The notes beneath the pieces were generated by a model, which saw only the letters and a program-made list of their open reading frames with translations, did not search any database and was not told where the DNA came from. From Butyrivibrio sp. (GTDB lineage Bacteria; Bacillota_A; Clostridia; Lachnospirales; Lachnospiraceae): a stretch of DNA of 11,252 nt. The stretch is from contig NZ_JAILQF010000007.1 of the NCBI RefSeq assembly GCF_024699075.1, positions 1 to 11,252 of the forward strand. The letters are read 5' to 3'. The translations under genes were made by a program, and so were the position numbers. The first letter of the stretch is position 1. Every line of letters begins with the position of its first letter. This document shows positions 1-11,252 of the stretch, piece by piece.

Positions 1-1590
<1,590 letters not shown>

Positions 1591-1596
1591 AATATC

Positions 1597-1625
1597 ATAG
1601 TAGCATGTGGGTTGACTAATGTCAA
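1597..1625 (-). promoter_or_regulatory. nifJ promoter, consensus -35 with extended -10
   Basis: Read on the minus strand, TTGACA (1620-1625) is followed by exactly 17 bases and then TACTAT (1597-1602). A TG one base upstream of the -10 gives TGCTACTAT, an extended -10. The -35 is a full match to the sigma-A consensus and the spacing is ideal. It points at nifJ and is the best promoter in the divergent region. Start of transcription is expected near 1590. Confidence 0.7.
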
Positions 1626-1626
1626 C
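1611..1626. promoter_or_regulatory. Palindrome overlapping the nifJ -35 box (possible operator)
   Basis: GTTGAC-TAAT-GTCAAC is a perfect 6-bp inverted repeat with a 4-bp centre. It covers the nifJ -35 hexamer and part of the spacer, so a bound protein would block the polymerase. Spacing differs from the redox regulator Rex (GTTAA-N4-TTAAC), so that identity is not supported. The other strand also shows TTGACT here, which may contribute to the divergent ferredoxin side. Confidence 0.4.
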
Positions 1627-1724
1627 GTGAGTAATTATTAACAATCCTTAAACTTTTATCATCAATATATATGTGCAATATCGATAAGAGATATTAATAT
1701 CATCATTAGCACATGCTAACAAAC

Positions 1725-1751
1725 TTGCTAAATCAATTTTTTTGATATACT
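1725..1751 (+). promoter_or_regulatory. Ferredoxin promoter, extended -10
   Basis: TATACT (1746-1751) is preceded by TG at 1743-1744, giving an extended -10. A partial -35, TTGCTA, lies at 1725-1730 with a short 15-bp spacer; extended -10 promoters tolerate a weak -35. Transcription would begin near 1758, leaving a leader of about 80 nt before the ferredoxin ATG. Confidence 0.5.
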
Positions 1752-1765
1752 ATTAGAAATGTAAC

Positions 1766-1809
1766 TAAGTAAATAATGAGGCGGCAAACTCATTAGTATT
1801 TATTACTTA
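1766..1809 (+). other. Two-part hairpin in the ferredoxin 5' leader
   Basis: An inner perfect 7-bp stem TAATGAG/CTCATTA (1774-1780 with 1789-1795) encloses the 8-nt loop GCGGCAAA. An outer perfect 7-bp stem TAAGTAA/TTACTTA (1766-1772 with 1803-1809) surrounds it across an asymmetric internal loop. The structure ends about 10 bases before the Shine-Dalgarno AAGGAAGGAG (1818-1827), leaving that site free. It may protect the 5' end of a highly expressed message; that role is inferred. Confidence 0.5.
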
Positions 1810-1836
1810 TTATTCGTAAGGAAGGAGATTATTACT

Positions 1837-2007
1837 ATGGCATACGTTATTAGTGATTCTTGCATCAGCTGCGGTTCATGTGCTGCTCAGTGCCCTGTTT
1901 CCGCTATTTCTCAGGGAGCTTCTCAGTACGAGATCGATCCTAACACATGTATCGATTGCGGTTCATGCGCTGCTCAGTGCCCTGTATCAGCTATTTCTCA
2001 GGGATAA
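1837..2007 (+). CDS. Clostridial-type 2[4Fe-4S] ferredoxin, 56 residues
   Basis: Small soluble electron carrier, the usual acceptor for pyruvate:ferredoxin oxidoreductase and donor to hydrogenase, Rnf and other ferredoxin-linked enzymes. Start is ATG 1837 after a strong AAGGAAGGAG. Two CxxCxxCxxxCP motifs are complete: Cys9, 12, 15, 19 and Cys38, 41, 44, 48. By the family rule, one cluster is held by Cys9, 12, 15 and 48 and the other by Cys38, 41, 44 and 19. Length and the classic pseudo-twofold layout match Clostridium ferredoxins. The two halves are more alike than usual: CGSCAAQCPVSAISQG occurs twice without any change. It diverges from nifJ across a shared regulatory region, which fits the two acting together. 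Monocistronic, ending in a strong terminator. I give no gene symbol because ferredoxin names vary. Confidence 0.96.
   Translation: MAYVISDSCISCGSCAAQCPVSAISQGASQYEIDPNTCIDCGSCAAQCPVSAISQG
1870..2004 (+). repeat. Near-identical 48-nt tandem halves inside the ferredoxin gene
   Basis: Positions 1870-1917 and 1957-2004 encode the same 16 residues and differ at only three third-codon positions (TGT/TGC, GTT/GTA, TCC/TCA). The repeat period is 87 nt, or 29 codons. All clostridial ferredoxins carry an ancient duplication, but the nucleotide halves are normally well diverged. Confidence 0.9.
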
Positions 2008-2019
2008 TTCGTATTTGAT

Positions 2020-2066
2020 CTTATCTAAGGATAAGGCAGAATGAGTTATAAAGCTGAACTTTATAA
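2020..2066 (+). other. Two perfect hairpins in the ferredoxin 3' untranslated region
   Basis: The first is CTTATC/GATAAG (2020-2025 with 2030-2035) with a 4-nt loop. The second is TTATAAAG/CTTTATAA (2046-2053 with 2059-2066) with the loop CTGAA. Neither is followed by a U-run, so neither terminates by itself. They lie between the stop codon (2005-2007) and the terminator, so the 3' end of the message would be almost fully double-stranded. Confidence 0.6.
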
Positions 2067-2074
2067 GAGAAAAT

Positions 2075-2107
2075 AAGCAGGTAAGTTTGACTTACCTGCT
2101 TTTTTTA
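2075..2107 (+). terminator. Rho-independent terminator of the ferredoxin gene
   Basis: Perfect 11-bp stem AAGCAGGTAAG/CTTACCTGCTT (2075-2085 with 2091-2101), 5-nt loop TTTGA, then a run of T to 2107. It lies 67 bases after the ferredoxin stop. The same stem may help to stop leftward transcription from dnaB, since a moderately T-rich stretch follows it in that direction as well. Confidence 0.92.
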
Positions 2108-2128
2108 TTACATTTTTTTATTTTTTGG

Positions 2129-2154
2129 TAAAAAATATTGATAAAATTTATCAA
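2129..2154 (-). terminator. Weak terminator at the end of dnaB
   Basis: On the minus strand an 8-bp AT-only inverted repeat, TTGATAAA/TTTATCAA (2138-2154), overlaps the dnaB stop codon (2151-2153) and is followed by TATTTTTTACC. The stem has little GC so it is weak alone. The GC-richer hairpin at 2075-2101 lies just beyond and may be the effective stop for convergent dnaB transcription. Confidence 0.45.
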
Positions 2155-3494
2155 TGTCTTTCCAGATTGGCAAATTTGGTGAACTGAGGCATCCAAAGAA
2201 GCTCAACTGTACCAATAGGGCCATTTCTCTGCTTAGCTATGATGATCTCAGCGATACCTTTTTTATCTGTATCATGATTATAATAATCATCACGATATAT
2301 GAACATAACCATATCCGCATCCTGCTCGATAGCTCCGGATTCACGAAGATCTGAAAGCATGGGTCTGTGGTCAGGTCTTTGCTCTACAGCTCGGGAAAGC
2401 TGGGAAAGTGCAACTACAGGAACATTGATCTCTCTGGCAAGAGCCTTGAGGGATCTTGAAATATCTGAGATCTCCTGCTGTCTTGATTCTGAGCCTCTTG
2501 TACCACCGCCGCTCATGAGCTGCAAGTAGTCAATGAAGATAATGCCAAGATTATGTTCCATCTTGTATTTACGGCACTTGGATCTCATCTCCTGTACAGA
2601 AATACCTGGTGTATCATCTATTATCAGGTTGGAACCGCCTATAAGATCGGCACTGTCAATAAGTGCTTCCCAGTCTCCGTCTGACATCTTACCTGTTCTA
2701 AGATTCTGGGCTTCGACATGTGATTCCATGGCGAAAAGTCTGTTTACAAGCTGTTCCTTACTCATTTCCAGTGAGAAGATAGCTGCTGTTACATTATTCC
2801 TGAAAGCCATATATTCTGCAATGTTAAGAGCAAAAGCTGTCTTACCCATTGAAGGTCTTGCTGCTATCAGGATAAGATCTGATGGCTGGAAACCTGATGT
2901 ATCATAGTCAAGATCTGTAAAGCCTGTTGCAATACCAGTTACCGTTCCTGTGTTACGGCTTGCTGTTGCGATCTTATTCAGGGCATTTACTACTATCTGA
3001 CTTATGGGAACGAATTCTCCGGCGTCTCTTCTCTGTGTAACATTAAATACATCTTTTTCTACATTGTTTAGTATAGTCTCAAGCTTATCTGTTCCTGCAT
3101 AGCAGTTACTTGATGTCTCTTCACAGACTTTTATAAGTTTTCTTAATGTAGACTTTTCAGCTACTATCTGAGCGTAGTATTTGACATTGGCTGATGTCGG
3201 TACTGCAGCAACAAGATTTACAATATACTCGGTTGATGCATATTCAGGGGGGACATTTTTGTCTTTAAGTCTTTCCTGAAGTGTAACCTGGTCAACCGGT
3301 CTTCCTTCTTTATTAAGTTCAACACATGCGTCAAAAAAGGTTCCGAGCTGGCGATCATAAAAGTCGTCACCGTTTATATACTCGGTGGCAACTTCTATTG
3401 CCTCTCTGTCCATGAGCATTGCGCCTACAACAGACTGCTCTGCTTCACGGCTCTGCGGCGGAACCCTTTTAACCATAAACTGTTCGTCTGCCAT
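2151..3494 (-). CDS. dnaB: Replicative DNA helicase DnaB (447 residues)
   Basis: Hexameric 5'-3' ATP-driven helicase that unwinds DNA at the replication fork and binds primase through its N-terminal domain. Residues 1-115 are the N-terminal collar domain (PPQSREAEQSVVGAML at 12-27), a linker follows, and the RecA-like motor starts near 183. Walker A is RPSMGKT (213-219), SLEMS lies at 241-245, Walker B IIFIDYLQLM at 318-327 with Asp322, ESRQQEIS at 336-343, GAIEQDAD at 387-394 and KQRNGP at 421-426. Length is standard for the family and no intein is present. Start ATG 3494 follows AAAGGA (3500-3505). It is the third gene after gdpP and rplI, a conserved Firmicutes order. In Bacillus the orthologue is named dnaC. 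No defect seen. Confidence 0.97.
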   Translation of the reverse strand: MADEQFMVKRVPPQSREAEQSVVGAMLMDREAIEVATEYINGDDFYDRQLGTFFDACVELNKEGRPVDQVTLQERLKDKNVPPEYASTEYIVNLVAAVPTSANVKYYAQIVAEKSTLRKLIKVCEETSSNCYAGTDKLETILNNVEKDVFNVTQRRDAGEFVPISQIVVNALNKIATASRNTGTVTGIATGFTDLDYDTSGFQPSDLILIAARPSMGKTAFALNIAEYMAFRNNVTAAIFSLEMSKEQLVNRLFAMESHVEAQNLRTGKMSDGDWEALIDSADLIGGSNLIIDDTPGISVQEMRSKCRKYKMEHNLGIIFIDYLQLMSGGGTRGSESRQQEISDISRSLKALAREINVPVVALSQLSRAVEQRPDHRPMLSDLRESGAIEQDADMVMFIYRDDYYNHDTDKKGIAEIIIAKQRNGPIGTVELLWMPQFTKFANLERH

Positions 3495-3530
3495 AATAAT
3501 CCTTTGTTATACATATCCAAAGTCAATAAG

Positions 3531-3563
3531 TTATAAAATCAGTATTCTTTATGGATTTTATAA
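3531..3563 (-). repeat. Perfect 10-bp inverted repeat in the rplI-dnaB gap
   Basis: Arms TTATAAAATC (3531-3540) and GATTTTATAA (3554-3563) flank a 13-nt loop in the 88-bp gap between rplI and dnaB. It is AT-rich and no U-run follows in the dnaB direction, so full termination is unlikely. It may be a processing or stability element that sets dnaB levels apart from rplI. Confidence 0.45.
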
Positions 3564-3582
3564 GATTTGTCCATGAATTTAT

Positions 3583-4029
3583 TTATGCTTCTGTTACAGA
3601 TACTCTGATCTTAGCTGTTACCTGAGGATGAAGCTTTACAGGTATTTCATATGTTCCGCATGCTTTGATAGGATCTGAAAGGACAAGCTTCTTCTTGTCT
3701 ATATCAAATCCAAACTGGTCTTTGGCAGCCTGAGCTATTTCTTTGGTAGAGATAGAGCCGAAGACTTTACCGCCTTCTCCTGTCTTAATTGTAACTTTGA
3801 TAAGCTCTTTCTCGATCTTTTCTCCAAATGCCTTGGCATCTTCAAGCTTTTCTTCTGCTACCTTGGCATCATGCTTCTGCTCAGCCTTAAGTCTTGCAAG
3901 ATTAGCATTGGTTGCTTCTACTCCGAGATTTTTCTTAAAAAGCATATTGTTGGCATAGCCGTCACTTACCTTAACTACGTCACCTTTTTTGCCAAGAGAT
4001 TTTACATCTTCTAATAAAATTACTTTCAT
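3583..4029 (-). CDS. rplI: 50S ribosomal protein L9 (148 residues)
   Basis: Structural protein of the large ribosomal subunit that binds 23S rRNA and extends from the L1 side. The N-terminal RNA-binding domain is typical: [19 protein letters not shown] at 1-19, then [20 protein letters not shown] at 21-40, close in style to the Geobacillus L9. A long, lysine- and glutamate-rich connecting helix follows (about 42-80). The C-terminal domain shows GKVFGSIST (87-95) and [17 protein letters not shown] (125-141). Length matches the family. The ATG at 4029 overlaps the gdpP stop as ATGA, and its Shine-Dalgarno sequence GGAAGGTG lies inside the end of gdpP, so the two are probably translationally coupled. 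Confidence 0.97.
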
Positions 4030-6083
4030 TTAAGTTCACCTTCCTCAATCATTGTATCTATTGTCTTCTTGATAATTCCTATGGCCTCTGTAACTGTAAT
4101 GCCTTCCATCTGACAGCCTGCCATACTCATGTGGCCGCCGCCTCCAAGTCTTTCCATTACAAGCTGGACATTGACTTCATCAATTGATCTTGCGCTTACA
4201 TAGACCATATTCTGGTATTCGGTACATACAAAGCTGGCTCTGATTCCTTTGATATTAAGAAGTTCATTGGCAGCCTGCGCTCCGATAATTGTAGGGCTTA
4301 CGATATCTTCACTGTTACATATTGATATAGCATAAGCTCCTTTGTAGATCTCAGCCTGACTTACAGCATCGGCTTTGGTCTTGTATTCATTGGCATCTTC
4401 TCTGAAGAGCTTTCTGACTCTGGTAACATCTGCTCCGTTTCTTCTAAGGAATGCAGCTGCTTCAAAGGTTCTGACACCAGTCTTTTGCATAAAGTTATTG
4501 GTATCTACCATAATGCCTGAATACATGCTGTCGGCTTCTTCAGTATTAACCTTAACATTCTCGCCTATATACTGAAGTATCTCTGATACCATCTCACAGG
4601 TTGATGATGCATATGGCTCTACATAGGAGAGAGTTGCATTCTCAATTGTCTCAGTTCCCTGTCTGTGGTGGTCAAGTACTACTATGTTCTTACAGAATCT
4701 AAGAAGCTCAGGACATTCTGTAATAGATGGCTTGTTGACATCGACAACAACAAGGACCACATTGCCGCTTGCCATATCTATTGCTGTCTGAGAGCCTATG
4801 ATCATGTCATCCTCATATTCAGGATTGTTCTTAAAAAGATCCACAAGAGGCTGCATGGACTTAGTTACATCATTAAGTACTATATGACACTTTCTGCCAA
4901 GATATTTACTGATACGGTTAATACCTACAGAAGCACCAAAGCTGTCTACATCACCTAGTCTGTGTCCCATAACAAGGACTGTGTCGTTAGCTGTGATGAT
5001 CTCTTTAAGTGCATGAGCCTTAACTCTTGCCTTAACTCTTGTATTCTTCTCAATCTGCTGACTCTTACCGCCATAATAGATCGTATTATCAGGAGTCTTA
5101 ACAACTGCCTGGTCACCGCCTCGTCCAAGAGCAAGGTCTATGGCATTACGTGCAAATTCATAGTTCTGTGAATATGACAGGCCATCAATACCCATACCTA
5201 TACTGAGTGTTACAGCCATTTCGTTACCGATATTGACTGTCTTAACTTCTTCAAGGATATCAAATCTTGCTTCCTGCATTACCTTGCAGTACCTTTTGGG
5301 CATTACCACAAAATATTTATCCTTTTCAGTCTTACGTACTATACCATTACAGCTTGCTACGTACTTATTGATCTTACGGTCTATAAGTGCTATAAGAAGT
5401 GATCGTCTTACTTCTTCTACACTTTCAAGGGCTTCTTCATAGTTATCAAGATAGATAAGTCCTGCTGCCATAGACTGGTCATCAACTTCCTGAACTGCAA
5501 GACGAAGAGCTGTCTGATCGAAGAGATATACTATGATAAGATATCCGTCATAGCTGCTGGCCTCTATAATGTCGCTGTTACTTGCCATCTCTTCAAGAGA
5601 TATCTTACGCATTCTAAGTGAATAGAAATTGTTCTCATATTCAAGGTCGTACTGAACCTCTTCATCATTCATGGCCGGGAACTTATCAGCTGTCACCTGA
5701 GGAAATACAGCTGTTATCTGCTTATGAAAGTTCTTCTTCTCATGAACAGTCTTCTCAAAAGCGATATTAGACCATATAACCTTGCCTGTATCGTCCAGAA
5801 GGCAGCTTGGAAGATCCATCTCTCTAAGGAGCGTTTTCTGAATCTGTCCATACTGGGTAGCAAAACTTACAAGCTCATTGATCACAATGGGCCGTGTCAT
5901 AAAATACATAAGAAAAACTATTACTGTATATAGAATAGTGAAAATAGTAAGAATAATTCCTGCCTGTATACCTCCAAAGAAATATACAAGGAATGTGACA
6001 AGAATTAATATTATATCAAGGTAAAGAAAGGTCGTTAAAAAAGTTTTAAGACGCCCCTTTAATCTGATTCTATTTTTTTTCAT
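4026..6083 (-). CDS. gdpP: Membrane-bound cyclic-di-AMP phosphodiesterase GdpP (DHH/DHHA1, 685 residues)
   Basis: Hydrolyses the second messenger c-di-AMP to pApA, which affects potassium and osmotic balance, cell-wall stress and beta-lactam tolerance in Firmicutes. Two membrane helices span roughly 13-36 and 39-62. A PAS-like domain (about 85-190) and a degenerate GGDEF domain (about 200-335) follow; YFVVMPKRY at 257-265 stands where GGDEF would be. The DHH domain has its metal ligands: GHRLGDVDS (His374, Asp378, Asp380), Asp448 in VVVDVN, DHHR at 471-474 and Asp527 in MVDTNN. The DHHA1 substrate motif is [10 protein letters not shown] at 647-656. Length fits the family (about 650-690), and every catalytic residue expected is present. 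Start ATG 6083 follows GGAGGG (6092-6097). First gene of the gdpP-rplI-dnaB operon. Confidence 0.95.
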
Positions 6084-6109
6084 TATAATAACCCTCCACG
6101 GCTCCTATA

Positions 6110-6127
6110 AAATGGATTATACCATTT
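6110..6127. promoter_or_regulatory. Palindrome centred on the gdpP -10 box
   Basis: AAATGG-ATTATA-CCATTT is a perfect 6-bp inverted repeat whose 6-bp centre is exactly the -10 hexamer. A dimer bound here would hide the core promoter. It may be chance in AT-rich DNA; no known regulator consensus is claimed. Confidence 0.35.
6116..6124 (-). promoter_or_regulatory. Extended -10 promoter of the gdpP-rplI-dnaB operon
   Basis: On the minus strand TGGTATAAT combines a perfect TATAAT (6116-6121) with the extended TG (6123-6124). No recognisable -35 hexamer lies 16-18 bp upstream; that place is taken by a GC-rich palindrome. Transcription would begin near 6109, giving a leader of about 26 nt that contains the GGAGGG ribosome binding site. 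Confidence 0.65.
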
Positions 6128-6139
6128 ATTGCTCTAGGC

Positions 6140-6151
6140 CGCCACCTGGCG
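6140..6151. promoter_or_regulatory. GC-rich palindrome at the -35 position of the gdpP promoter
   Basis: CGCCA-CC-TGGCG is a 5-bp inverted repeat in an otherwise AT-rich spacer. It sits 31-42 bases upstream of the expected start, where the missing -35 would be. This fits an activator or repressor site, or a stray GC-rich stem. There is no clear identity. Confidence 0.35.
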
Positions 6152-6170
6152 AGAAACTAAATTTACTCAC

Positions 6171-6203
6171 AAAAAAGTGCATCAGCTTATGAGACTGATG
6201 CAC
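6171..6203 (-). terminator. Rho-independent terminator after the calcium-loop gene
   Basis: On the minus strand, GTGCATCAG and CTGATGCAC (6195-6203 with 6177-6185) form a perfect 9-bp stem around a 9-nt loop, followed at once by TTTTTT (6171-6176). It lies 24 bases after the stop codon of the gene at 6227-7210, ends the accessory module and isolates it from the gdpP promoter. Confidence 0.93.
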
Positions 6204-6226
6204 GTATATATCTTAAGCTTACTGCT

Positions 6227-7210
6227 TTATTTATTTTCATAGAGCATTTCGCGCCGCTTTCTTGCGTTTTCCATAAGCTCTTTATTGTGCTCCTTTTTCT
6301 TATAATATTCTTCGAGCTGCTTTTTCTGCCTTGCCTCTCTTATCCTGCGTCTTTGTGCATTGTTATTATTTCTTTGCCTGCTTCTTTGAGAATTCTCGCT
6401 TTTAAGTTTTTCTAAGACTTCATCAAGCTTTTCTGAAACGCTCATAAGTTCAGATTCTCTACCTTTGATTGCAAGATCTACATGTTGAATTGTCCCTGCG
6501 CTTCCATCTTCTTTTAGGAAAAGACCTGTCTTTCTAACCTTACCATCAAGATTCCCATCTGATCCTTCAAGCGTAAACTCTGTATCTTCCGCTCCAAGAT
6601 ATATAGCGCCGACTCCTGCTTCTTTTAATGTCTTAAGTTCATCTTTGCCGTCATCTGTCTTATTCCATACTTTAAGCTTCTCGAACACTTCGTCATTTTC
6701 ATCGATCCAGCCATTTTTATCAGAATCATACTGGGAAAGATCTTTAAAGCCGTCTCCGCTCTTTACTCCAAAGAGCTCTGTACCATCATTTATTTTCCCA
6801 TCTTCATTATGATCAAGAGCCAGAAAACCGCTTCCTGACTTGGTCATAGAAATATCATCCTGTATTCCATCGCAGTCAAGATCAAACTTGAATTTCTGAT
6901 CGCTAAGTCCCGATGTCTTTAAACCTGTATTGATTATCAGTGGATCAAAAAGGTTATCAAGAGGTGATGCAAGAGGGATAAAGGTATCACGCTCTTTCTT
7001 CCTTTCCATATTAACTTTTAGATCAACATCTATTTTCTTGCCATCCTGTGTTGTTATTTTTCCGGATGCTTTGTAATCCGATTTTTCTTTCTCAACCTGC
7101 TTTTCTACTAATCCTGCAAAAAATCCGCCATTCCCTGCGCTGCCTGTACTCAATTCCTTTTGATAGCTGTAGCTTGAAGCTGAAAAAACATCACTATTAG
7201 CTATCTTCAT
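6227..7210 (-). CDS. Protein with EF-hand-like calcium loops and a basic C-terminal tail (327 residues, function unknown)
   Basis: The middle section (about 107-210) is a calcium-loop module of a type seen in large secreted or RTX-like proteins and in stand-alone clostridial proteins: FDLDCDGIQDD (109-119), SGSGFLALDHNEDGKINDG (125-143), ELFG, DSDKNGWIDENDE (162-174) and GVGAIYLG (199-206). The loops near 110, 133 and 162 have the D-x-[DN]-x-[DN]-G pattern; the last has Asp in position 12, as a working EF-hand loop needs. The N-terminus is Ser/Tyr/Gly-rich with no signal peptide or membrane segment. Residues 255-325 form a probable coiled coil, very rich in Arg, Lys and Gln. Start ATG 7210 follows GAGAGGT, which overlaps the end of the upstream gene 12 bases away. 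It shares an operon with the FliD-like gene, so a flagellar or surface role is possible but inferred. Calcium binding is likely. Confidence 0.75.
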   Translation of the reverse strand: MKIANSDVFSASSYSYQKELSTGSAGNGGFFAGLVEKQVEKEKSDYKASGKITTQDGKKIDVDLKVNMERKKERDTFIPLASPLDNLFDPLIINTGLKTSGLSDQKFKFDLDCDGIQDDISMTKSGSGFLALDHNEDGKINDGTELFGVKSGDGFKDLSQYDSDKNGWIDENDEVFEKLKVWNKTDDGKDELKTLKEAGVGAIYLGAEDTEFTLEGSDGNLDGKVRKTGLFLKEDGSAGTIQHVDLAIKGRESELMSVSEKLDEVLEKLKSENSQRSRQRNNNNAQRRRIREARQKKQLEEYYKKKEHNKELMENARKRREMLYENK

Positions 7211-7222
7211 ATATCTTACCTC

Positions 7223-7966
7223 TCAAATCCAAGTGGAGAACATTGTTGAAAGAAGAGAACTATATCCGCCATAGCTGCCAAGGCCATATGCGCCATTAGC
7301 TCCATATATTCCTCTATTTATTAAATACCTGCCGGATGCAACTGCTGCCTGAGATGTAACCGCTGCACTGCTTTTTATCTGTTGCCCGAAAGAACCAGCA
7401 TCTGCAAAGATATTCTTGACATCTTCTTTATCAGCCTTTTGAAATACTTCATCATCTACAAACAGTTCTCCGTTTTTGCTGTTGTAGCCGATTCCTACTT
7501 TTCTAAGGTCAGAAATATTATCACGAACTGCTTCTCTCATATTGCCCGCGCTTCGTCTAACAGCTATACTTCCGGTTTCTTTAGAACTGTCATTCACCTC
7601 ATTATATCCGTTTGTAAAATTCATTACTGCCTTAAGGAGCTCTTTTGTATTCTTTTCTTCATAGAGCTCTTCATTTGATAATTTTCTGGCAGCACTTTCC
7701 AATTTCACCGCGCCCTGAGCAGTCTCAATATCTGATGAATAAGATCTGTCAATTGTACCAAACGCATTATTCATCGCTTTGATAGTTCCCGCGCTTAGTC
7801 CATAATAGCTATTACTGTAACCAGTCTTATATGCACCTGTAGCTTCTTTATTTCTGCTTATGTTATTCAAGCTGCTATAACCAGACAATCCCTGTCTATT
7901 CCAAATATTACCGGCTCCGCCTATCCGCCCTGTAAGAACGTTAAAATAGTTTTGTCCAAAGATCAT
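7223..7966 (-). CDS. FliD C-terminal-like protein (247 residues, possible flagellum-associated protein)
   Basis: Residues about 84-206 resemble the C-terminal part of the flagellar cap protein FliD: VMNFTNGYNEV (114-124), an Arg/Ala-rich helix, then ISDLRKVGIGYNSKNGELFVDD (151-172), followed by EDVKNIF (181-187). The L..(I/V)GI....G.L..D......D.V...F pattern is the FliD signature. The rest of FliD is absent, and the protein is far shorter than FliD (about 400 residues or more), so it is not the cap itself. The tail (218-236) is Gly/Tyr-rich. No signal peptide is seen, as is usual for flagellar export substrates. I place the start at ATG 7966, eight bases after AGGAGG (7975-7980); the upstream GTG 7975 lies inside that ribosome binding site. 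It is first in an operon with the calcium-loop gene and follows a LytTR-type site. Confidence 0.7.
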   Translation of the reverse strand: MIFGQNYFNVLTGRIGGAGNIWNRQGLSGYSSLNNISRNKEATGAYKTGYSNSYYGLSAGTIKAMNNAFGTIDRSYSSDIETAQGAVKLESAARKLSNEELYEEKNTKELLKAVMNFTNGYNEVNDSSKETGSIAVRRSAGNMREAVRDNISDLRKVGIGYNSKNGELFVDDEVFQKADKEDVKNIFADAGSFGQQIKSSAAVTSQAAVASGRYLINRGIYGANGAYGLGSYGGYSSLLSTMFSTWI

Positions 7967-8035
7967 AAAAAACACCTCCTTTTACGGACAAATAGGATCC
8001 TGAATTAAAAGCAAAGAATATATACTCTCAATTCA

Positions 8036-8064
8036 AGTATCGTCCATAAAAGAAGGCGTTTAAA
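8036..8064 (-). promoter_or_regulatory. Weak promoter for the FliD-like / calcium-loop operon
   Basis: On the minus strand TTTAAA (8059-8064), a 17-bp spacer, then GATACT (8036-8041). Both hexamers are poor, as expected for an activator-dependent promoter. The -35 starts 10 bp after the LytTR direct repeat. It gives a leader of about 60 nt carrying the AGGAGG at 7975-7980. Confidence 0.4.
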
Positions 8065-8074
8065 TAGATTTGAC

Positions 8075-8104
8075 ATGAACGGACATCTCTGTGTAATGAA
8101 TGGT
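8075..8104 (-). promoter_or_regulatory. LytTR/AgrA-type direct repeat upstream of the FliD-like gene
   Basis: On the minus strand ACCATTCAT (8096-8104), a 12-bp spacer, then TCCGTTCAT (8075-8083). LytTR regulators bind two 9-bp imperfect direct repeats 12-13 bp apart with consensus [TA][AC][CA]GTTN[AG][TG]. The second copy matches all positions and the first misses one. The 21-bp period puts both on one face of the helix. The two-component pair encoded next door is the natural candidate to bind here. Confidence 0.7.
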
Positions 8105-8137
8105 CAACTTTATATAAATCCAGCGTCAATAATTCTT

Positions 8138-9580
8138 TTAAAACTGATGATTCTTAGAATCCTGCAGCATGACTTTTACTTCAAAGAGGTTATCTGCTGT
8201 GCTTATATAAACAGCACCAAGATATTTATCCGCAAGATTCATGACGCTCTTTAATCCTATTCCGTGCAGACTGGTATCTGACTTATACGACCTTTGGTTC
8301 TTTGATTCCTCACTAAAAACTTTCCTGCTTTTAAAGCTGTCATCATCCCCTTTTTCTACAACTCCGTCATAAGGATTGACTATTCTTATTAGGAAGAAGT
8401 TATTCTTCATCTCACCCGACAGCTCAATATATCTTTTATCTTCAGGTACATAGGAAACCGCTTCCAGAGCATTATCCAGAAGATTACTTAATATGATTCC
8501 TACATCCATGGCACTTATTTCTTTATCCTTGGGAAAAGAAAAATCGCATTCAAACCTGCATCCTCTTTTTTGCGAAAGTGCTGCTGCCTCATTTATAACT
8601 ACATCTGAAACAGGATTCCCAGTAGCATACAAAAATGCGCCTTCACTTAGCTCTACATTCATTTCGCTAAGATAATCAGATGCCTCCTCGTATCTGTGAT
8701 TTTCAAGGAAGCTTTTAAGAACCATCAGCTTTCCTGCCATATCATGGCGAAGGGCTCTTATTTTGTCATGATATTTTTCTGTATATTCTATCTTCTTCCT
8801 GATATAAGCCTGCTCCTGTAACTGCTCCTGCAATATAAGATCTTCTTCCTTAAGTCTTCTATAACGCTGCCAGGTTGCAACTGCTGTCATCTCCCCTATA
8901 AATATAAGGATCGCGATAAGAGGAAGTATAAACCTTAAATCTTTTTTCTCATCCAGTAAGACAAAAACCTCTTTTTCCAAAGGGACAACCATGATCTGCA
9001 CTATACTGTATGCGATCAGATAGGAAACAGTTGAATAGATGGATAGGTATACAGCCTCTGCAAGTGACATGTCGTATTGCTTCTTGCAGATTCTTCTTAT
9101 TATGAAATATGAAAAGGTAAAGAAGAAAAGAAGAAAAAGTACCTGAGCTATCATAAGCAAAAACAGAATAAAAAAGAGCTTGCCCATTGCTCCTTCTCCG
9201 GAATAATCCAGCACTTCTAAAGCCTTATCTGTAATAAAATCAAAAATTGTGAAATTAATAAGATGCCATATGTAAAAAATATTCTGCCACAGGAAAAAGA
9301 CAAAGATCATGTGCGCGAGCACCTTTGAATTATAAAAATAAAAGATAACAATTATCGTAAGAAGACATACCAGGAAATACCCAAATTTCGTTTCATATGG
9401 GATCATATAAAAAAACAGACCTTCCAATATAATAATTGTTGTAAGAAAAGCAGTCTTCCCGCTGTCAAGTACTTCCTTATCTATAAAAAGATTTACAAAT
9501 GCCCCAAAGAAAAAGCCTCTGACAAGTATAATTGCTATCGCATAGCTTTGCTCAATTATATAGAATTGTTCTTCCGACAT
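8138..9580 (-). CDS. Membrane sensor histidine kinase, AgrC-like GHKL type (480 residues)
   Basis: The first 236 residues are highly hydrophobic, with six or seven predicted membrane helices (about 11-32, 43-62, 66-84, 88-112, 133-161, 174-197, 216-236), as in peptide-sensing AgrC-like kinases. A cytoplasmic helix of about 238-275 leads to IRALRHDMAGKL (274-285), where His279 is the likely phosphorylation site. The N box is NLLDNALEA (366-374), and HGIGLKSV (439-446) is the glycine-rich ATP lid, typical of GHKL kinases (HATPase_c_5). A loop of charged residues (407-437) separates them. Start ATG 9580 follows GAGGGG closely. The regulator gene ends 47 bases upstream, so the two are one operon. 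The ligand is unknown; no agrB or agrD lies in the window. Confidence 0.9.
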   Translation of the reverse strand: MSEEQFYIIEQSYAIAIILVRGFFFGAFVNLFIDKEVLDSGKTAFLTTIIILEGLFFYMIPYETKFGYFLVCLLTIIVIFYFYNSKVLAHMIFVFFLWQNIFYIWHLINFTIFDFITDKALEVLDYSGEGAMGKLFFILFLLMIAQVLFLLFFFTFSYFIIRRICKKQYDMSLAEAVYLSIYSTVSYLIAYSIVQIMVVPLEKEVFVLLDEKKDLRFILPLIAILIFIGEMTAVATWQRYRRLKEEDLILQEQLQEQAYIRKKIEYTEKYHDKIRALRHDMAGKLMVLKSFLENHRYEEASDYLSEMNVELSEGAFLYATGNPVSDVVINEAAALSQKRGCRFECDFSFPKDKEISAMDVGIILSNLLDNALEAVSYVPEDKRYIELSGEMKNNFFLIRIVNPYDGVVEKGDDDSFKSRKVFSEESKNQRSYKSDTSLHGIGLKSVMNLADKYLGAVYISTADNLFEVKVMLQDSKNHQF

Positions 9581-9627
9581 CGTCCCCTCGCAAAATATGA
9601 GTTACTATTTTTGGCCATTAGCCAACT

Positions 9628-10395
9628 TCAGGATATGAAATTCATATATGCTCTTACAAAATCAGCATATTTATACTTGGATATGATCAAAGTCTCACCA
9701 TTATCCATATACGCTTCAGACCTTGAATAGCCTTTAATATGCTGCATGTTTACAAGGTATCCTCTGTGTATCCTAAAAAAAGAGTTGCCAAGTTCGTCCT
9801 CAAATTCGTTCATCCTCTTATATACATCCAAAGCCTTTCCTTCTGCATGAACTATGGATTTTCTGCCGCTGCTTTCAATATATAAGATATGCTTTTGTTT
9901 TATATTGATCATGTCTCTTCCTGTCTGAATGACAAGAGGCTTAGTATATAACTCATCATCTGATTGTCTTGTTGATAAATGCTGGGCATCAAGCCTTTTA
10001 AGTTCATCAACCGCTCTTTTAAGCTCATCTTCAAGTTCAATTTGGGTTACTGGCTTTAAGAGATAATCAAATGCCTTCACTAAAAAGGCATCTCCCATCC
10101 TGTCAGGAATACCCGTAACATATATAATCAGTGGTCTGGAAGCGCGCATACTTCTGCCATTATTTTCTACTCTCTTCCCAAGTTCTCTGGCAGTGTCAAT
10201 GCCATCAGCTCCTCCCATTGCAATGTCCAGAAAAAGAATATCCGGATTTACTCCGGCATCAATATCCCTAAGTAGTTCTTCCCCGGAATCATATTCTTTT
10301 ATTTCTGCCTTGTATGGACTTTTCAAAAGCCATTCGGAGATCAGGCTTCTGACAGCTTCCTCGTCATCACATACTGCAAAACGATATTTATCCAT
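9628..10395 (-). CDS. LytTR-family response regulator (255 residues)
   Basis: DNA-binding regulator paired with the adjacent kinase. The receiver domain (1-125) has acidic Asp10-Asp11, phosphoacceptor Asp57 in ILFLDIAMGGADG, Thr94 in IIYVTG and Lys114 in YLLKP. The LytTR DNA-binding domain spans about 150-253, with KHILYIESSGRKSIVH (168-183) and FFRIHRGYLVNMQHI (207-221). I place the start at ATG 10395: GAGGAAAG lies nine bases upstream, while a possible TTG at 10410 would sit on that ribosome binding site. Order is regulator then kinase. Upstream lie a LytTR-type direct repeat and a leader hairpin, which suggests autoregulation. The targets proposed here are itself and the FliD-like operon. 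Confidence 0.93.
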   Translation of the reverse strand: MDKYRFAVCDDEEAVRSLISEWLLKSPYKAEIKEYDSGEELLRDIDAGVNPDILFLDIAMGGADGIDTARELGKRVENNGRSMRASRPLIIYVTGIPDRMGDAFLVKAFDYLLKPVTQIELEDELKRAVDELKRLDAQHLSTRQSDDELYTKPLVIQTGRDMINIKQKHILYIESSGRKSIVHAEGKALDVYKRMNEFEDELGNSFFRIHRGYLVNMQHIKGYSRSEAYMDNGETLIISKYKYADFVRAYMNFIS

Positions 10396-10411
10396 TTGCG
10401 CTTTCCTCAAT

Positions 10412-10477
10412 TTACTTTAGCTCATCGATATGCTTAAATAACGCAAAAATGCTTAGCACGGACATCCATGTAAGCAT
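10412..10477 (-). CDS. Possible 21-codon leader peptide ahead of the response regulator
   Basis: ATG 10477 opens a frame beginning MLTWMSVLSIFALFK and ending HIDELK, with stop TAA at 10412-10414, 16 bases before the regulator ATG. Its start codon lies inside the left arm of the leader hairpin and its frame crosses the whole hairpin. The Shine-Dalgarno is poor: AAAGGG only three bases from ATG. A hydrophobic front with a charged end could be a small membrane peptide or an attenuation leader, or the frame may be chance. Confidence 0.2.
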   Translation of the reverse strand: MLTWMSVLSIFALFKHIDELK

Positions 10478-10480
10478 TTT
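10445..10480 (-). terminator. Hairpin with short U-run in the regulator leader (attenuator or terminator)
   Basis: On the minus strand AAAATGCTTA (10471-10480) pairs perfectly with TAAGCATTTT (10446-10455) around a 15-nt loop; a TTTTT run ends the stem. It lies after the proposed regulator promoter at 10500-10529 and before the regulator ATG at 10395, so it would act on the regulator's own transcript. Readthrough from the upstream gene would also meet it. The U-run is short, so partial termination is more likely than complete. Confidence 0.5.
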
Positions 10481-10499
10481 CCCTTTAAACTATGTATTT

Positions 10500-10529
10500 A
10501 TAATATCATCATGAATAATACTCTTTATA
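10500..10529 (-). promoter_or_regulatory. Candidate promoter of the regulator-kinase operon
   Basis: On the minus strand TATAAA (10524-10529), an 18-bp spacer and TATTAT (10500-10505). The -35 starts 10 bp after the LytTR direct repeat, the same distance as at the FliD-like operon. The -10 matches five of six positions and the -35 is weak, consistent with need for an activator. Sequence here is AT-rich, so other -10 boxes are possible. Confidence 0.4.
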
Positions 10530-10539
10530 TATTCATGTC

Positions 10540-10569
10540 ATTAATGGACGAATTATTGTAACGAATGGA
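10540..10569 (-). promoter_or_regulatory. LytTR/AgrA-type direct repeat upstream of the response regulator gene
   Basis: On the minus strand TCCATTCGT (10561-10569), a 12-bp spacer, then TCCATTAAT (10540-10548). Each copy matches eight of nine positions of the LytTR consensus, and spacing is identical to the site at 8075-8104. It begins five bases after the stop of the upstream gene, which places it for autoregulation of the regulator-kinase operon. Confidence 0.65.
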
Positions 10570-10574
10570 CATTA

Positions 10575-11252
10575 CTATCTCTTCCATTTATCCGAGAAGT
10601 CAATCAGTTTCATCAGATCATTCTCATCTCTAGAAATAGCATCATCAACATTTGACTTTAGCTGAGCCGGGTACTGAGCATCGTAAGCAGGTCTCATCAT
10701 ATCTTCATAAGAAGCCATTAATTTTTTCACAGCGTTTTTATTTGAAATATCTGTACTTCTGATGTTATCGCGGATGTTTGCAATAAGATCCCGATCTGTT
10801 GCGATATCTGTACTGGCATACTCATTAACTGATTTTCTTACTTCTTCAGGTACATGAACTTCAATGCCAAAATACTTTCCGGATGAAGGATCGTCATTGG
10901 TTCTGATTTTCTTATTTACCAGCATCCTGTCCTGCGTATTTAACAGATTGTCATTAAAGTCTTTCATAGCTCGGCTGATTACTTTTGCCTGGTCTTCGCG
11001 AAAGTTTTTGGATGCCAGATCATCCACGACCTTCTGAGCCACTTCCATCTTGGCGTAATCTCTGTAGCTGAGATATCCATTCTTTAACTGACTTCCGATA
11101 CCTGTTATCATATCTCTTGCAGCAGATAACTCCTCATCATTAAAAGAAGCTCCGCCAATTTTATAAACACCTTCTGCATTTTTGCTTACCGGTATGTCTT
11201 TTTCATATAAAGCGCTTACAGGATGATTATTCCAGGAATCTCTCACTTTTTC
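10575..11252 (-). CDS. Unrecognised protein, C-terminal 225 residues (5' end outside window)
   Basis: An open frame runs from the right edge of the window to TAG at 10575-10577. A GTG at 11244-11246 could be read as a start, but the frame stays open past it to the edge (Glu-Lys before it) and no ribosome binding site can be seen, so the gene probably begins outside. The visible part is soluble, charged and mostly helical, with no membrane segment and no family I recognise. Points to note are NEEL-like text FNDEELSAARDMITGIGSQLK near 36-56, YFGIEVHVPEEVRKS near 125-139, and a C-terminus ending DKWKR. It precedes the two-component genes in the same direction, so it may belong to the same accessory module. 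Function unknown. Confidence 0.7.
   Translation of the reverse strand, partial: EKVRDSWNNHPVSALYEKDIPVSKNAEGVYKIGGASFNDEELSAARDMITGIGSQLKNGYLSYRDYAKMEVAQKVVDDLASKNFREDQAKVISRAMKDFNDNLLNTQDRMLVNKKIRTNDDPSSGKYFGIEVHVPEEVRKSVNEYASTDIATDRDLIANIRDNIRSTDISNKNAVKKLMASYEDMMRPAYDAQYPAQLKSNVDDAISRDENDLMKLIDFSDKWKR

Follow-up and report, generated by a model that had tools for sequence, protein, structure and literature searches.

What does a LytTR-type binding site control in front of an operon that encodes a FliD-like protein and a calcium-loop protein, and through what kind of promoter? The question was addressed in the window, i.e. the whole stretch of 11,252 nt that was analysed, and in related loci of Butyrivibrio genomes. 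The genes concerned and the site are arranged along the minus strand as follows.

10575 to window end, minus strand: unnamed gene, first along the strand
9628..10395, minus strand: LytTR response regulator gene (ATG at 10395; the entry in the open reading frame list begins at TTG, 10410)
8138..9580, minus strand: GHKL sensor kinase gene, which stops 34 nt ahead of site 1
8075..8104, minus strand: LytTR-type site 1, direct repeats at 8104-8096 and 8083-8075 with a 12-bp spacer
7223..7966, minus strand: FliD-like gene, 247 aa, ATG at 7966
6227..7210, minus strand: calcium-loop gene, 327 aa, Asp89-Pro90 codons at 6946-6941
6177..6203, minus strand: terminator-like hairpin 3' of the calcium-loop gene, from a hairpin scan

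The scan of 6100-11252 gave seven terminator-like sites, with 3.0 expected. Positions 1-6083 appeared ordinary: genes resembling those for pyruvate:ferredoxin oxidoreductase, DnaB, ribosomal protein L9 and GdpP and a ferredoxin-like reading frame, all read by eye except the GdpP-like gene. No AgrB-like protein was found among the six window proteins scanned. The initial annotation had placed the regulator gene less than 2 kb from site 1, which was true of its nearest end (1.5 kb) and not of its start (2.3 kb).

AgrA-type sites consist of two 9-bp repeats 12 bp apart, and WMMGTTNRK is the LytTR/AgrA repeat consensus. The direct repeats described previously, with 9/9 and 8/9 matches in 9-12-9 geometry, were found exactly so on the minus strand: repeat 1, ACCATTCAT (8104-8096), agreed with the consensus at 8/9 positions, and repeat 2, TCCGTTCAT (8083-8075), at 9/9. 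Two matches with at most one mismatch were present in the window, compared with a shuffle mean of 0.17, and 4 of 200 shuffles reached two; the other match, at 9999-10028 on the plus strand, sits within the regulator gene and looks accidental. A narrower pattern, WCCRTTNRT-12-TCCRTTNRT, which was composed after both sites had been seen, gave two perfect matches, at 8075-8104 and 10540-10569 (0.15 expected, none of 200 shuffles with two). From the window alone, site 1 was thus only moderately unlikely to arise by chance; the strong evidence for the predicted site was its conservation across loci.

A profile search with the FliD-like protein gave 12 loci in the species genomes, all titled Butyrivibrio. 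The entire site 1 was observed upstream of the FliD-like gene in 10 of them, the other two being cut by contig ends (in L001 the contig begins partway through the site, and L011, at the start of its contig, has a C-terminal fragment only). These 10 loci carried five distinct site sequences and therefore do not count as 10 independent cases. Repeat 1 in the related loci was ACTATTC[AG]T, matching at 7/9 positions, one base poorer than in the window. Loss of the repeats from orthologous loci had been named in advance as the outcome that would speak against the site; the repeats were kept at all 10 testable FliD-like loci, with spacer and flanks varying. Alignment of 17 sites, of which eight precede FliD-like genes, eight precede regulator genes and one lies elsewhere, indicated that the repeat unit exceeds 9 bp, roughly TGWCYATTCRTKACA-N6-TGWCCRTTCRTGACA, repeating with a period of 21 bp. 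When these sites were modelled by sequence only, 47 of 79 genus genomes gave matches at E<=0.1, many of them weak, and local groups of sites around the regulator gene were observed in several genomes (e.g. five sites sharing a contig in G004, and a group of five in G007). Judged by its repeats, conservation and linkage to the LytTR regulator gene, site 1 was classified as a LytTR (AgrA-type) site, to which binding is predicted. The earlier reading of a LytTR site ahead of a FliD-like/calcium-loop operon was in this way supported at the level of orthologue conservation. In G001 a LytTR-type site that scored very strongly (E 4e-12) was noticed away from the contig of the main cluster, at G001:C29:31844-31883.

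The next question was which promoter the site serves. The initial annotation had noted a weak -35 element 10 bp from the site. A -35-like TTAA was found there, 11 nt from repeat 2, and the label was corrected by comparison with flagellin promoters and by two-box scoring, which assigned the conserved promoter to the sigma28 type.

8060..8063, minus strand: -35 element TTAA, 11 nt past repeat 2
8038..8042, minus strand: -10 element CGATA, 17 nt past TTAA and 32 nt past the end of repeat 2
8029, minus strand: assumed transcription start, 13 nt past the C of CGATA, the usual start geometry of sigma28 promoters

In 12/12 sequences of alignment A2, site 1 was followed by the block CTATTYAA and, at a constant distance from it, by GACGATACTTG. 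Upstream regions of the flagellin family were collected from nine genomes (30 loci, of which three without a start by pattern and one misread were removed, leaving 26). Thirteen distinct flagellin promoters, selected for having both boxes, exhibited TTAA or TAAA (TTAT in one), 17 bases and CGATA, and the operon promoter has the same spacing; the remaining loci comprised one duplicate, four with CGATA and without that -35, and eight without CGATA. By two-box score, 8033-8066 was the top place in the window, with 13.89 (training range 10.6-15.0), a level expected 0.04 times per Markov-resampled window. Counting against the assignment, the full 34-position matrix of the 13 promoters, spacer included, did not single out the operon promoter (-0.05), which we take to be overfitting of the spacer. 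The GGG ahead of the -35 in 10 of the 13 flagellin promoters was absent at the operon promoter. The general sigma28 consensus is given as TAAA-N15-CCGATAT and the B. fibrisolvens type as TAAA-N16/17-MCGATAa (PMC3720852); read as TAAA-N15-ACGATA, the operon promoter has the spacing of the general consensus and falls 1-2 bp short of the B. fibrisolvens spacing given there. By boxes and spacing, the conserved promoter looks like a sigma28 (FliA/SigD) type, which would imply dependence on sigma28. The centre of site 1 lies ∼60 bp upstream of the assumed start, like the AgrA sites at P2 and P3, which are centred near -60 (PMC4227749).

A second site and a promoter of another type were found at the regulator gene.

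10540..10569, minus strand: LytTR-type site 2, TCCATTCGT-12-TCCATTAAT, ahead of the regulator gene
10500..10505, minus strand: sigma70-like -10, TATTAT, downstream of site 2
10445..10480, minus strand: hairpin and T run in the regulator leader, highly conserved

Site 2 preceded the regulator gene in 8/8 site-1 loci that extend that far. Together with the sigma70-type promoter this makes autoregulation likely, and the regulator would top up its own level through site 2. The leader hairpin lies shortly past the sigma70-like -10 and is a candidate attenuator or (small-RNA) terminator. Its sequence, AAAATGCTTACATGGATGTCCGTGCTAAGCATTTTT followed by the T run, was seen in nine aligned sequences (A7), with L006 differing in the loop.

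To see the site beyond this operon, a matrix was built from the 17 sites, all but one of which precede FliD-like or regulator genes, and scanned over the collected loci. It gave 112 sites, which fell into 22 clusters by downstream sequence; in a shuffled control of 213,636 bases no site passed the cut-off. CGATA began at an offset of 29 nt from the scored window in six clusters and at 28 in two more, and CGAAA, CGAGA or CGAAG at 29 in four further ones. Six clusters were regulator-type, most of them with a sigma70-like box around 31. Four had neither promoter type, which counts against the regulation proposed below, as does the observation that in other target families the -10 distance was constant and the -35 weaker or shifted. 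None of 5,000 shuffles reached six clusters, and no offset rose above two in any shuffle. The FliD-like promoter was only one of the six CGATA clusters; others precede the calcium-loop gene itself, without a FliD-like gene (L109; also L106 and L110), or small function-unknown proteins (L103:13914, L104:7876, L106:10077).

For the calcium-loop gene, the 27 nearest relatives in 79 genomes were taken, and 25 had a locus to read. The site with CGATA at offset 29 was present upstream in 21 of the 25; L132, L145 and L152 are truncated by the ends of their contigs, and in L153 an apparent deletion has left the regulator's site alone. Of the six loci listed for gene order, all had the regulator and calcium-loop genes, five had the kinase gene and one had the FliD-like gene. 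These counts therefore point to the calcium-loop operon as the conserved target and to the FliD-like gene as an optional first member. In L004:9955-11936 and L006:9939-11923, a different pair, response-regulator-like and membrane-kinase-like by eye, follows the calcium-loop operon.

The protein labels of the initial annotation held and could be sharpened, to FliD D1-like for the first product and, from the predicted fold and the Asp-Pro pair, to FrpC self-processing-module-like for the second. The core of the FliD-like protein models as the FliD D1 domain and matches FliD_C. A FliD_N match was not found in it and D2-D3 are absent, which distinguishes it from the FliD cap protein; it was not filed as FliD because the FliD_N domain is absent. 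A separate FliD_N gene was found in 8 of 9 genomes searched. The model of the calcium-loop protein showed the FrpC module fold across 147 residues at 2.5 Å (6sjw/6sjx), and the end points of the fold alignment place D89-P90 at FrpC 414-415, the N-terminal edge of the module. D89-P90 was invariant (20/20 aligned), and DPLxxN was present in 116 of the 120 listed homologues, the other four being without that region. Of the four EF-hand-like calcium sites of FrpC, the first (FrpC D419/D421/D423) was missing, with DPLIINTG in its place, and three later acidic loops were present. Among positions considered for the fifth calcium site of FrpC (D478 and D579), the residue after LFG was V or T, and D245, a possible equivalent, was invariant. 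The protein is accordingly described as FrpC-module-like and not as a proven member, and a cleavage/ligation chemistry would be predicted by analogy with the modelled fold. The D1-only FliD relative would probably be a flagellar export substrate; flagellar export is a guess, because no signal peptide was obvious by eye in either protein.

Several further module-like genes were observed. In G002 (strain INlla16), copies of the site with a module-like gene occur on C106, C90, C95 and C63, and one of the hits counted includes an in-frame stop. Two divergent genomes contain module-like genes with a strong site and CGAAA/CGAGA at the fixed distance (L115:6307, L116:7133); no LytTR regulator gene was recognised beside these two strong sites, which counts against the proposed regulation. 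The genus also has a second FrpC-module-like paralog, longer and widespread among the 79 genomes searched, and no LytTR site was found at its loci in the few members inspected of L154-L158.

The operon promoter overlaps one arm of a potential hairpin in the leader.

8042..8059, minus strand: 5' arm of the leader hairpin, overlapping the promoter spacer and the first -10 base
7972..7989, minus strand: 3' arm, including the Shine-Dalgarno GGAGG (7979-7975)

In ten aligned sequences (A5), an 18-bp stem pairs the promoter spacer with the Shine-Dalgarno region, and the leader fold had a z of -6.0. It was calculated that 87.2% of cells in the stem were paired, versus 41-54% when the arms were slid; paired cells and covariation score exceeded all 500 shuffles, and one pair was C-G in five sequences and U-A in five. 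Two other covariation measures gave little: the number of pairs changed on both sides was two, matched by 116/500 shuffles, and the level of further pair types was matched by 497/500. The unpaired probability of the Shine-Dalgarno sequence was then compared, with near-duplicates (L004, L009) left out, as well as the insertion alleles L005 and L010, for which a wrong start had been assigned. In read-through RNA it was 0.00 in seven of eight insertion-free FliD-like leaders, and in promoter-started RNA 0.24-0.84. Sequestration in read-through RNA was weak or absent in L012 (0.41), the insertion allele L002 (0.33) and the paralog L054 (0.78). Where the calcium-loop gene comes directly next, the value was again 0.00 in L111, and 0.19 and 0.18 in L106 and L109.

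These values suggest, with moderate confidence, that the leader hairpin serves as insulation from kinase read-through. Read-through mRNA from the kinase gene would fold the ribosome-binding site into the hairpin, and mRNA begun at the sigma28 promoter, without the 5' arm, would be translatable. In T4 late genes and IS10, leader hairpins silence read-through mRNA, with an internal promoter in or beside the hairpin arm. The likeness would be that the transcript of the internal promoter alone is translated; the difference is that here the operon is bacterial and the arm overlaps the promoter spacer. That the hairpin is instead a by-product, or a sensor (thermometer, ligand or protein binding), is a tenable reading of lower probability, with which the weaker covariation measures and the tolerance of insertion alleles for loss of the 3' arm agree. 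Given the assumed start, however, the 5' arm is outside promoter-started mRNA, so that there would be no sensing there, and promoters not after a kinase gene had no sequestering stem in L104 (0.73) and L106 MTGIN (0.66), with 0.21 in L107 MTGIN. In L002, L005 and L010, the 3' arm has given way to an insertion of ∼80 nt that contains two hairpin-like units in tandem and probably represents a small repetitive element.

For the operon as a whole, we propose, with a probability of about 0.7 and from sequence comparison, that the LytTR regulator binds site 1 and aids sigma28 polymerase at TTAA-N17-CGATA. A signal to the kinase would lead to phosphorylated regulator, which would occupy site 1 and help sigma28 polymerase to start the FliD-like/calcium-loop operon. 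The operon would thus need two keys, sigma28 from a flagella-building cell and a signal received by the kinase-regulator pair, and its output, a mini-FliD and a clip-and-link-like protein, would appear in cells already making flagella. The opposite sign, in which the regulator represses the sigma28 operon and keeps it off in flagellated cells until the signal, is unlikely: the pair of site and promoter fits either sign, and the good -10 and -35 boxes could suffice unaided, but the site centre near -60 from the assumed start is a position where AgrA activates, and the -35 boxes of other targets are poor, as those of activator-dependent promoters tend to be. Still less probable is a plain sigma70/LytTR promoter, with CGATA kept for another reason such as being part of the hairpin. 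A sigma70-like pair, TGGACG-18-TATATT, does exist at 8046-8017; nevertheless, most of its -10 (four of six bases) falls within 26 columns that the other nine A5 rows lack, the scan gave 17 such pairs versus 16.4 expected, gene families that lack the leader hairpin also have CGATA at this distance, and the sigma70-type box was found at the regulator gene instead. Chance occurrence of the 9-12-9 repeats can practically be dismissed, for although the window expectation of 0.17 is not negligible, they were kept at 10/10 testable loci and recur before the regulator gene and other operons.

Activation by the LytTR regulator at a sigma28 promoter would be an uncommon pairing. Response regulators usually work with sigma70 or sigma54 promoters. 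The S. aureus agr P2/P3 system is similar in its repeats centred near -60 (PMC4227749), its GHKL kinase and LytTR regulator and, probably, autoregulation; it differs in that the conserved Butyrivibrio target promoter is of the sigma28 type and serves genes for a mini-FliD and a clip-and-link-like protein. In E. coli, CRP at -49.5 activates the sigma28 promoters aer and trg (PMC2859248). The proposed Butyrivibrio case would likewise be a sigma28 promoter dependent on an upstream activator, with a LytTR response regulator at ∼-60, in another phylum and with a dedicated local regulon. In C. difficile 027, agrA mutants lose most flagellar transcripts (50/54 genes), direct agr action being only suggested in that report and complementation failing to restore flagella (PMC3754575). 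There too a LytTR regulator touches flagellar genes, whereas in Butyrivibrio it would be an accessory set with its own sites.

The calcium-loop protein resembles the N. meningitidis FrpC module (PMC7078468) in fold, in the Asp-Pro at the N-terminal edge and in EF-hand-like loops. In contrast, it is a predicted module in a protein of 327 aa from a flagellated Firmicute, without the large RTX repeat region and the first calcium loop. A region similar to the FrpC module is present in FtxA of Filifactor alocis, which belongs to the large RTX proteins and has 16 calcium-repeat domains (PMC7692872), and the module is therefore not new to Firmicutes; in the excerpted text of that source, no flagellar or LytTR link is given for FtxA. 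The arrangement of the site, promoter and genes suggests a gene switch and a surface chemistry that had not been met together before. If the proposal is true, LytTR sites at a fixed distance from sigma28-type promoters throughout a local regulon would be a new split of flagellar late genes into core and on-demand sets, the clip-and-link-like module, co-controlled with a FliD relative, would carry the chemistry of large RTX proteins into flagellar biology, and the small protein, from a flagellated rumen Firmicute, would offer protein engineers a distant new starting family.

A further-reaching scheme, which we consider rather improbable, would be signal-gated, calcium-triggered covalent labelling on flagella. 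The LytTR two-component system and sigma28 would jointly induce a D1-only FliD adaptor together with a flagellum-exported unfolded protein, the latter of which would fold in outside calcium and cut itself at Asp89-Pro90; through an aspartyl anhydride its N-terminal piece would be ligated to lysine residues, whether on the tip of the flagellum, on a neighbouring cell or on plant-attached proteins, and the promoter would double as the antisense arm that silences read-through translation.

Finally, the leaders of distant FliD-like relatives were read, apart from that of L060, whose start was probably misassigned. Those of L059, L068 and L072 exhibited an (A)CAGGGATGT hairpin, which we take to resemble a CsrA-binding site, and CsrA may control related genes.
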